This document shows positions 14,439 to 18,166 of a stretch of 64,000 nucleotides of DNA, in pieces. The first letter of the stretch is position 1. Each line of letters opens with the position of its first letter. The notes under the pieces were generated by a model. That model was given only the letters and a program-made list of their open reading frames with translations. It was not told the DNA's origin and did not search any database. The translations under genes and the position numbers were made by a program. Location: NCBI GenBank assembly GCA_021811235.1, contig JAJZPG010000002.1:1-64000 (forward strand), given 5' to 3'. This DNA is from Pseudomonadota bacterium. GTDB lineage: Bacteria > Pseudomonadota > Gammaproteobacteria > Burkholderiales > Thiobacillaceae.

Positions 14439-15467
14439 GTGTTTAGTTTCTTCAAGTCCAAGCCCCCTGCCACCCCCGACGCGTCGCCGCCCGAACCAGC
14501 CAGCGCGCCAGCCGCCGCCGAGTCACCTGCCGAGACGGCCGCAGCCGGGGCCCGGTTAGGCTGGGCGCAGCGCCTCAAGCAGGGCTTGGCGAAGACGCGC
14601 GACAAGCTGGGCGGCCAGCTGGCCGGGCTGTTCGGCGTGGGCCGCAAGATCGATGCCGAACTGTTCGAGGAACTCGAAACCATCCTCATCACTGCCGACG
14701 TCGGCGTCGACGCCACCCACCATCTCCTCGACATGCTGCAGAAGCGCGTGCGGCGCGAAAACCTCACCGAAGCCTCAGACCTGCAGGCCGCGCTCAAGGA
14801 CGCGCTGGTCGAATTACTGGCCCCGCTCGAGGCGCCGCTCGACGTCACCCCGCACAAGCCCTTCATCCTGATGCTGGCCGGCGTCAACGGCGCCGGCAAG
14901 ACCACCACCATCGGCAAGCTCGCCAAGCTCTACCAGTCGCAGGGCCTGTCCGTGTTGCTGGCGGCGGGCGACACCTTCCGCGCCGCCGCACGCGAACAGC
15001 TTCAGGTCTGGGGCGAGCGCAACAACGTCACGGTGGTAAGCCAGGAAAAGGGCGATTCCGCCGCGGTGATCTTCGACGCCATCCAGGCCGCCCGGGCGCG
15101 CAACATCGACGTCGTACTGGCCGACACCGCTGGCCGCCTGCCGACCCAGCTGCACCTGATGGAAGAGATCAGGAAGGTCAAACGCGTGATCGAGAAGGCC
15201 ATCCCCGGTGCGCCGCACGAGGTGTTGCTGGTCCTCGACGCCAACACCGGGCAGAACGCGGTGACGCAGGTGAAGGCCTTCGACGACGCGCTCGGCGTGA
15301 CCGGGCTCGCGCTCACCAAGCTCGACGGCACCGCCAAGGGCGGTGCGATCGCCGCCATCGCCCAGGCCCGGCCGATCCCTGTGCGCTACATCGGCGTCGG
15401 CGAAGGACTTGACGACCTGCGGCCGTTCGACGCGCGCGAATTTGTCGAAGCCATTTTCACCCTATGA
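14439..15467 (+). CDS. ftsY: Signal recognition particle receptor FtsY
   Basis: 342 residues. FtsY docks SRP-ribosome complexes at the membrane. A short acidic/Pro-Ala-rich A domain (residues 1-30) precedes the NG GTPase domain with [22 protein letters not shown] and [10 protein letters not shown]. The start is GTG at 14439 (MFSFFKSK); the N-terminal FSFFK stretch fits a membrane-binding start. It opens the ftsY-ftsE-ftsX-rpoH run. Confidence 0.96.
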
Positions 15468-15480
15468 AGCGGCTCCCGGC

Positions 15481-16143
15481 ATGATCAGCTTCAGCCAGGT
15501 CACCAAGCGCTATCCGGGCGGCCATGAGGCGCTCAATAGCGTCACCCTCGTGATCGAGCAGGGCGAACTGGTGTTCCTGACCGGGCACTCGGGCGCCGGC
15601 AAGAGCACGCTGCTGAAACTCATCGCCGCGATCGAACGGCCCACCAGCGGCGTGGTTTCGGTCAGCGGCCAGAACATCAGCCGCCTGTCTCGCCGCGCCG
15701 TGCCCTACCTGCGCCGCAACATCGGCCTGGTGTTCCAGGACCACAAGCTGCTGTTCGACCGCAGCGTGATCGAGAACGTGGTGCTGCCGCTCGATATCGC
15801 CGGCTTCGACCGCCGCGAAGCACTCAAGCGCGCACGCGCCGTGATCGACAAGGTCGGCCTGCTCAATCGCGAAAAAGCCAATCCGGTCAGCCTGTCCGGC
15901 GGCGAGCAGCAGCGTCTTTGCATCGCCCGCGCGCTGGTTTCCCGCCCCGCCCTGCTGTTGGCCGATGAACCGACCGGCAACCTCGATGCCGGCTACGCCG
16001 CCGACATCATGGCGATGTTCCGCGACTTCCACCAGGTCGGCACCACGCTGGTGATCGCGACCCACGACGACCGCGCCCTCAACGCCCTCGGCGGCCGCAT
16101 TCTGCACCTGGATCACGGCAAGGTCGGGGAGGTGACGGCATGA
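15481..16143 (+). CDS. ftsE: Cell-division ABC transporter ATP-binding protein FtsE
   Basis: 220 residues. Walker A is GHSGAGKST, the signature motif LSGGEQQR and Walker [11 protein letters not shown], followed by the H-loop ATHD. FtsE with FtsX controls periplasmic murein hydrolases at the division septum. It starts 13 bases after ftsY and its stop overlaps the ftsX start (ATGA). Confidence 0.96.
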
Positions 16144-17048
16144 TCGGCTGGCTACGCCACCAGAAGCACGCGCTGACTTCTGCGCTGCGCCGCCTCGCTC
16201 GGCAGCCGGTGAGCACCTTGCTCACCGCGCTGGCGATGGGGGTGGCGATCAGCCTGCCGAGCGGGCTTTACCTGGGGCTGGACAATCTCAGCCGTCTGGC
16301 GGGCGAATTGCCGGCACAGCCCGAGATCAGCGTGTTTCTCGACCCCGCGGCGAGCGGGGCGGACAAGCAGGCCATCGCCACCCGCTTGAAACGGCCCGAC
16401 ATCGCCCAGGCCCGCTTCGTGCCCAAGGACGACGCGCTGGCAGCGCTCAGCGTCTCACAGGATCTGGCCGACATCAGCGCCGGTCTGGCCGAGAATCCGC
16501 TCCCGGACGCCTGGGTGGTGCAGCCCCGTACCCGTTCGCGGGAGGCACTGGCGCGCGTGGCCGACGAATTGGGCAAACTGCCCGGGGTGGCGGAAACCCA
16601 TCTCGACAGCCAATGGGCCGAACGCCTGCAGGCCGCGCTAACCATCGGGCACACCGGCGTGTGGCTGCTGGCCGGCCTGTTCGCCATTGCGCTCGTCGCC
16701 ATCTCCGGCAACGCCATCCGCGCCCAGGTGCTGGCCCGCCGCGATGAAATCCAGGTCAGCCGCCTGATCGGTGCCACCGATCGCTACATTCGCCGCCCCT
16801 TCCTCTACCTCGGCGCGCTGCAGGGCCTGCTGGGCGGGCTGGCGGCGGGCGGCGTGCTGGCGGCCGCGGGCACGCTCTTGCGCCCGCAGGTCGAACGCCT
16901 GGCCGGCCTGTATGGCTCGGCCTTCCATCTGGCACCGCCGAGCACGTCCGAAATCGCCGTCGTGCTCGGCCTGACCACCCTGTTCGGCTGGCTCGGTGCC
17001 TGGCTCTCGGTCACGCGCACCCTGCATCAGGTCGAGGCGACACGCTGA
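16140..17048 (+). CDS. ftsX: Cell-division membrane protein FtsX
   Basis: 302 residues. A cytoplasmic N-terminus (starting [12 protein letters not shown]) is followed by four membrane segments, with a periplasmic domain after the first (about residues 55-160) and the typical FtsX/MacB C-terminal core (ISGNAIRAQVLARRDEIQVSRLIGATDRYIRRPF). It partners FtsE, and the genes overlap by 4 bases. Confidence 0.95.
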   Translation: MIGWLRHQKHALTSALRRLARQPVSTLLTALAMGVAISLPSGLYLGLDNLSRLAGELPAQPEISVFLDPAASGADKQAIATRLKRPDIAQARFVPKDDALAALSVSQDLADISAGLAENPLPDAWVVQPRTRSREALARVADELGKLPGVAETHLDSQWAERLQAALTIGHTGVWLLAGLFAIALVAISGNAIRAQVLARRDEIQVSRLIGATDRYIRRPFLYLGALQGLLGGLAAGGVLAAAGTLLRPQVERLAGLYGSAFHLAPPSTSEIAVVLGLTTLFGWLGAWLSVTRTLHQVEATR

Positions 17049-17091
17049 AATCAGTCGCTTTTCCATCACCCTTCCGGAACCCTGCCGCGCC

Positions 17092-17118
17092 TTAGCACTC
17101 ATAAACAGAGAGTGCTAA
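17092..17118 (+). promoter_or_regulatory. CIRCE operator (HrcA binding site) in front of rpoH
   Basis: The sequence reads TTAGCACTC, nine bases, GAGTGCTAA: an exact match to the CIRCE consensus with the exact 9-base spacer. It ends 26 bases before the rpoH ATG, and a -10-like TAAAAT overlaps its right arm (17116-17121). CIRCE is the operator of the heat-shock repressor HrcA, normally found at groESL and dnaK. Its presence here predicts HrcA repression of the heat-shock sigma factor gene. Confidence 0.93.
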
Positions 17119-17144
17119 AATATTTTAAAGGGGGTTATCAACGC

Positions 17145-17990
<846 letters not shown>

Positions 17991-18007
17991 TCCCCGTCAG
18001 GCCGCGC

Positions 18008-18047
18008 CCAATGAAAAAGCCCCGCACGCGCGGGGCTTTTTCATTGG
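18008..18047. terminator. Bidirectional intrinsic terminator between rpoH and the cbb3 operon
   Basis: Two perfect 18-base inverted arms (18008-18025 and 18030-18047) surround a 4-base loop. The core is GCCCCGC/GCGGGGC flanked by AAAAA on one side and TTTTT on the other, so a U-run follows the stem in both directions. It stops rpoH on the plus strand and the cbb3 operon on the minus strand. Confidence 0.92.
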
Positions 18048-18058
18048 GGCCAGCCGGA

Positions 18059-18166
18059 TCAGAAGAACGAGCCGATCAGGACCGAGAGAATGCTGATCCA
18101 CGACCAGACGATCAATGCGACCACTACCACCATGGGAAAACCCTGAAAAGTCAGAAGCTGTTTCAT
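18059..18166 (-). CDS. 35-residue single-helix membrane protein at the end of the cbb3 operon
   Basis: Translated by hand: ATG at 18164-18166, stop TGA at 18059-18061. A GGAG ribosome binding site lies 8 bases upstream of the ATG. After MKQLLTFQGFP comes an uninterrupted hydrophobic helix (MVVVVALIVWSWISILSVLI) ending GSFF. It lies 34 bases after ccoS and just before the shared terminator, so it is the last gene of the ccoNOQPGHS unit. Size and topology recall CcoM, the small extra subunit described for Pseudomonas stutzeri cbb3 oxidase. That link rests on position and topology only. Confidence 0.7.
   Translation of the reverse strand: MKQLLTFQGFPMVVVVALIVWSWISILSVLIGSFF

Follow-up and report, generated by a model that had tools for sequence, protein, structure and literature searches.

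A predicted HrcA operator fused with the rpoH promoter in a Thiobacillaceae genome and in most sampled hrcA-bearing families of its class

Control of groESL and dnaK by the HrcA repressor acting at CIRCE operators is described for rhizobia in the available text of PMC3989490, while that of PMC6032397 covers HrcA/CIRCE in Bacillus, Chlamydia and Helicobacter and states an effect of GroE on HrcA. The operator and the repressor family of these systems are those found in the genome studied here (PMC3989490, PMC6032397). What differs is the target, which in the other systems consists of chaperone genes and here is the gene for the positive heat-shock regulator, with the operator apparently fused with a sigma70-like promoter. 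The closest parallel is Geobacter sulfurreducens, for which a comparative prediction of 2004 gives a perfect CIRCE at -51 of rpoH in a genome containing hrcA (PMC545781), the same combination as is found here; CIRCE on rpoH is therefore an arrangement of a kind already known. G. sulfurreducens also has CIRCE at hrcA-grpE-dnaKJ, whereas the genome studied here does not; rpoH is entered in Table 8 of that paper for G. sulfurreducens only, whereas in the present sample 82 of 113 families from the class have the site; and the overlap with a promoter is undiscussed for G. sulfurreducens in the available text (PMC545781). That paper is also the only one among the available parts of the literature surveyed to place CIRCE on rpoH. 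The class-wide spread, the fusion with a promoter and the link with loss of hrcA were not met in the same survey; the study by Permina and Gelfand of 2003, the title of which is said to cover beta- and gammaproteobacteria, may report them.

The heat control of sigma32 in Escherichia coli is mainly translational and at the protein level, following transcription. There, rpoH lies in an ftsYEX neighbourhood, as it does in the genome studied here, and sigma32 is raised after heat, as it would be in the circuit proposed below. The two differ in that a control search of E. coli with PF01628 found no match, whereas hrcA is present in the genome under study.

The window, a stretch of 64,000 nucleotides from a Thiobacillaceae genome of 2.85 Mb (99.7% complete), contains rpoH at 17145-17990 on the plus strand. 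Its product of 281 aa belongs to the sigma32 (RpoH) family, scoring 408 bits against TIGR02392 where the cut-off is 323.1; the genome holds a single match at E ≤ 1e-60, and its closest relatives (88-89%) are RpoH sequences of Thiobacillus and Hydrogenophilales MAGs. Upstream on the same strand lie ftsY, ftsE and ftsX (14439-17048; TIGR00064, TIGR02673 and TIGR00439), the last separated from rpoH by 96 bases. A sequence-only reading of the window had described an exact dyad 26 bases before the rpoH ATG, overlapping a TAAAAT, and this was verified: a CIRCE of the form TTAGCACTC-N9-GAGTGCTAA occupies 17092-17118, a position without strand, with 0 mismatches, and is followed after 17119-17144 by the ATG at 17145. 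It is the only match with three or fewer mismatches in the window, against a chance expectation of 0.02, and shuffling the window produced a match in 2 of 100 cases. Beyond rpoH, inspection of the sequence at 18010-18045 points to a likely terminator, in which AATGAAAAAGCCCCGC would pair with its reverse complement across a loop of 4 bases; it was absent from the output of a pattern scan spanning that stretch (16900-18100). On the minus strand, a short frame (18059-18166; 35 codons; MKQLLTFQGFPMVVVVALIVWSWISILSVLIGSFF) faces rpoH from the far side of this terminator; its hydrophobic product is possibly a small membrane protein.

The repressor called for by the sequence-only reading is encoded in the genome. 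A single hrcA match of 219 bits lies in an open frame of approximately 338-346 codons, uninterrupted by stops, the product of which shows sequence similarity to an HrcA of known structure (1stz, E 1.4e-19); it is flanked by nadK and a hemH-like frame, both named from their translations. Counting CIRCE sites with up to three mismatches over the whole genome gives two, one before rpoH and the other before groES. The latter is perfect, stands 77 bases ahead of groES and directly follows a sigma32-like promoter (CTTGAAA-N13-CCCCTA). Similar promoters precede grpE (CTTGAAG-N13-CCTCAT) and dnaK (CTTGAAA-N13-CCCCAT; the gene named by eye from its first residues), at neither of which did the whole-genome search find a CIRCE with three or fewer mismatches. 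Four features of an HrcA/CIRCE regulon were found together: an operator near a predicted promoter, hrcA, groESL as a target and retention of the site at orthologues.

The operator before rpoH coincides with a predicted promoter. The candidate sigma70 -35 element, TTAGCA, lies within the left arm (17092-17097, plus strand), and the extended -10, TGCTAAAAT, is made of the right arm and the three bases that follow (17113-17121, plus strand). These elements are separated by a spacer of 18 and match the consensus at 9 of 12 positions. TAAAAT occupies 17116-17121, such that its first three bases are the last three of CIRCE; the right arm provides the TG ahead of the -10 together with three of its six bases (TGCTAA + AAT/TAT). 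Placing the start from the -10, near 17127-17129, predicts a short leader at 17127-17144 (plus strand), with a Shine-Dalgarno-like GGGGG. A simple scan of 16900-18100 found one sigma70-like promoter, where 0.2 were expected, and it is this one. The genome promoter scan found no sigma32-like promoter in the gap between ftsX and rpoH, the one match of this type being weaker (11/13) and situated within ftsX at approximately 16385, some 700 bases before CIRCE.

The same overlap recurs where the site is conserved. The base at +3 past the operator, which completes the -10, is T at 76 of 77 site-bearing rpoH loci of named betaproteobacteria, 74 of 80 from a draw across the class and all 34 from a draw across the order, whereas it is T at only one of 20 groES operators; the latter have TTGAA no more than 45 bases upstream in 20 of 20 cases, as read by eye. 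As the bases past CIRCE resemble a promoter at rpoH but not at groES, there appear to be two kinds of CIRCE, one overlapping a sigma70-like promoter and the other following a sigma32-like promoter. Judged by its composition, the rpoH site is of the former kind, an HrcA operator fused with a predicted sigma70 promoter.

The named relatives comprised 80 rpoH loci picked for their closeness to the RpoH studied, of which 500 bases upstream were scanned. A CIRCE with at most three mismatches was present in 77, at distances of 23 to 239 bases from the start codon; that of Nitrosomonas europaea ATCC 25978 (L017) has 1 mismatch. The remainder were Nitrosospira sp. Nl5, which nevertheless has hrcA, a Neisseriaceae MAG, and a locus (L080) too short to judge, its contig starting 69 bases before the rpoH match. 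Fifty of the named genomes were searched for hrcA, and it was found in 48. It was not found in the Neisseriaceae MAG, in which the CIRCE pattern used on the 50 genomes had no match either; this agrees with the two Neisseria species entered without HrcA in a published table (PMC3135505, available in part). A genome of 1.3 Mb (L016) is without hrcA, yet has the rpoH site. Most of the 50 have two CIRCEs (37 genomes), with one in 9, none in 2 and three in 2. Among the matches listed, 20 in 19 genomes lie away from rpoH, and 19 of these are before groES; the other is a third CIRCE-like site in Rhodoferax sp. U11-2br (G050, locus L275), not adjoining groES.

A wider sample was provided by drawing one genome per family code from the GTDB class, giving 124 genomes, 113 of them with rpoH. 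The first pass covered 110 loci from 109 genomes, and a later one the four rows with the lowest scores. CIRCE was found before rpoH in 80 of the 110 loci, and was perfect in 44. The mismatch scores fall into two groups, with 80 loci at 0-3 and 28 at 6-9, and two at 5. Scans with permuted arms produced one match at up to three mismatches in 2,200, and these and the window shuffles rule out a chance origin of the rpoH CIRCE. For the full draw, the site is present in 82 of 113 genomes. In family code f12, the operator is altered in both arms at two loci, symmetrically as TTAGCAGTC...GACTGCTAA in L210 and as TTAGCAGTC...GATTGCTAA in L100, which hints at an HrcA of changed specificity. In genome G080, rpoH occurs twice (L131 and L137); a CIRCE with 1 mismatch precedes one of the copies and none the other.

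That the dyad is kept before rpoH in relatives, as the sequence-only reading implied, is accordingly seen in the named set and in the class and order draws, and a feature of a single lineage is ruled out by the same three samples. A draw from the phylum, weighted towards very complete genomes and with some families represented more than once, gave a lower figure: of its 30 class members, 8 have the site. Five of these are among the 26 loci L194-L218 and L221, and the others are the class-draw members G000, G060 and G147, a fourth such member, G061, lacking the site. Hence a majority of families need not be a majority of species. Outside the class, 90 genomes were drawn and 42 loci fetched, of which four have CIRCE before rpoH, all from one family code, so that a phylum-wide feature is unsupported. 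These four (L252, L254, L260 and L261) are among nine fetched loci of that family code, f137, and only L261 has T at +3.

The distribution of the rpoH site largely follows that of hrcA, which was found in 90 of the 124 class-draw genomes. For the 113 with rpoH, 76 have both, 25 have neither, six have CIRCE only and six have hrcA only, so that the site is present in 76 of 82 genomes with hrcA and 6 of 31 without (Fisher p = 5e-14, families being treated as independent). In the order draw (41 genomes, 40 with rpoH), it is present in 34 of 36 genomes with hrcA, the other two carrying 4-mismatch forms upstream of rpoH, and in none of the four without, in which no CIRCE with three or fewer mismatches was found genome-wide. 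One of these four, a 99% complete genome in which hrcA was not detected (G318, locus L310), carries a decayed dyad with 5 mismatches 27 bases before rpoH, its TAAAAT intact, possibly a snapshot of operator loss. The association could not be given much further weight by correcting for phylogeny, because the RpoH tree (109 rows, with the first G080 copy alone and none of the four rows from the later pass) is poorly resolved and the corrected test is too weak: support is good at 4 of its 106 inner branches, at least 19 changes are needed for CIRCE and 20 for hrcA, and the supported branches hold two independent pairs, which change in the same direction in 1.7 on average.

The exceptions run both ways. 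The six class genomes that have hrcA and lack the rpoH site each have at least one CIRCE elsewhere (one, G116, has four perfect CIRCEs, none at rpoH); together with Nitrosospira sp. Nl5, they imply that the site is dispensable. As for the six with the site and no detected hrcA, two perfect CIRCEs occur in G144, and in G136 a perfect one is accompanied by another with 1 mismatch; in these two genomes hrcA may have been missed by the search. Of the rest, G081 carries two CIRCEs, each at 2 mismatches, G119 carries three at 3 mismatches, and the rpoH site is the only one in G168 and G064.

These observations very probably reflect a circuit in which heat frees rpoH and groESL from HrcA, sigma32 drives the chaperone genes and GroE re-arms the repressor. 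At normal temperature, HrcA bound to CIRCE would mask the -35 and the extended -10 and exclude housekeeping RNA polymerase, such that little sigma32 would be made. Heat, or the loss of help from GroE, would inactivate HrcA; the HrcA of Campylobacter has reportedly been called an intrinsic thermosensor. This would open rpoH and, through the second CIRCE, groESL. The accumulating sigma32 would then transcribe groESL, grpE and dnaK, the last two from promoters without CIRCE, while groESL, having both a sigma32-like promoter and CIRCE, would require sigma32 as well as release from HrcA. The increase in GroE would refold HrcA and shut both operators again. Such a circuit would be a coherent feed-forward loop closed by negative feedback, and is probably common to a majority of the beta- and gammaproteobacterial families sampled in which hrcA is retained. 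The sequence-only reading had likewise put HrcA above rpoH in a transcriptional cascade; a wiring of HrcA on rpoH and then sigma32 on the chaperones is well supported by the comparison between genomes.

It is possible, if unlikely, that HrcA binding is a minor input that sets a basal level, with rpoH governed instead by translation, by the activity or stability of sigma32 or by read-through from ftsX. The closeness of ftsX on the same strand, the post-transcriptional regulation of sigma32 in E. coli and the genomes that have hrcA and no rpoH site would all accord with this, but CIRCE spans the sole sigma70-like site in the scanned region, is retained in the great majority of class genomes with hrcA (76/82), and is not accompanied by an unusually structured 5' mRNA. 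The fold of the latter is unremarkable (z 0.42). The folds of 80 loci with CIRCE and 45 without, with start codons set by a rough rule, gave p values of 0.07 and 0.23; the 45 combine 22 class loci lacking both the site and hrcA with 23 phylum-draw loci lacking the site, of which two are outside the class, with G056 in both groups and 11 of 136 folded loci left out. A search of RNA families returned ten matches up to E 1, all below the gathering score and none to an RNA thermometer family. With no relevant family, no unusual fold and no clear difference between loci with and without CIRCE, an RNA thermometer at rpoH found no support. Translational control of rpoH may nevertheless be present, and the proposal of the sequence-only reading that a transcriptional cascade acts in its place is at most a possibility. 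HrcA may also act alongside regulation of the activity or stability of sigma32.

An effect of CIRCE on mRNA is reported in Bacillus, and the repeat before rpoH lies near a start codon, so that it might work mainly in RNA, as a leader stem-loop altering the stability or translation of the message. This is very improbable: the predicted start is downstream of CIRCE, so the operator would not be transcribed from that promoter, its distance to the start codon varies tenfold among named relatives, the sequence of the arms is kept and not their pairing alone, and the site is mostly missing where hrcA is missing. Least credible of all is that the operator survives as a relic and no longer has a function, since, although the six class genomes with the site and no detected hrcA would suit this, the site is perfect here and in many class-draw loci (44/110), and is gone or decayed in 25 of the 31 class genomes without hrcA.

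The presence of CIRCE before rpoH in most sampled families that keep hrcA suggests that it is E. coli, the standard textbook example, that departs from the rule. We lean slightly towards the view that the ancestor of the beta- and gammaproteobacteria (the Gammaproteobacteria of GTDB) had the HrcA-rpoH operator-promoter, and that families without hrcA, including that of E. coli, lost the operator along with the repressor and then had to depend on translational and protein-level control of sigma32. The HrcA repressor and sigma32 are usually described as parallel regulators; here the repressor appears to stand above the sigma factor, a layout suggested for 82 of the 113 families sampled from this very large bacterial class and often with just two operators per genome, as in 37 of 50 named relatives. 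If the ancestral reading is true, the textbook heat-shock circuit would be a derived replacement, and the prediction follows that the unusual translational control of E. coli arose after hrcA was lost.
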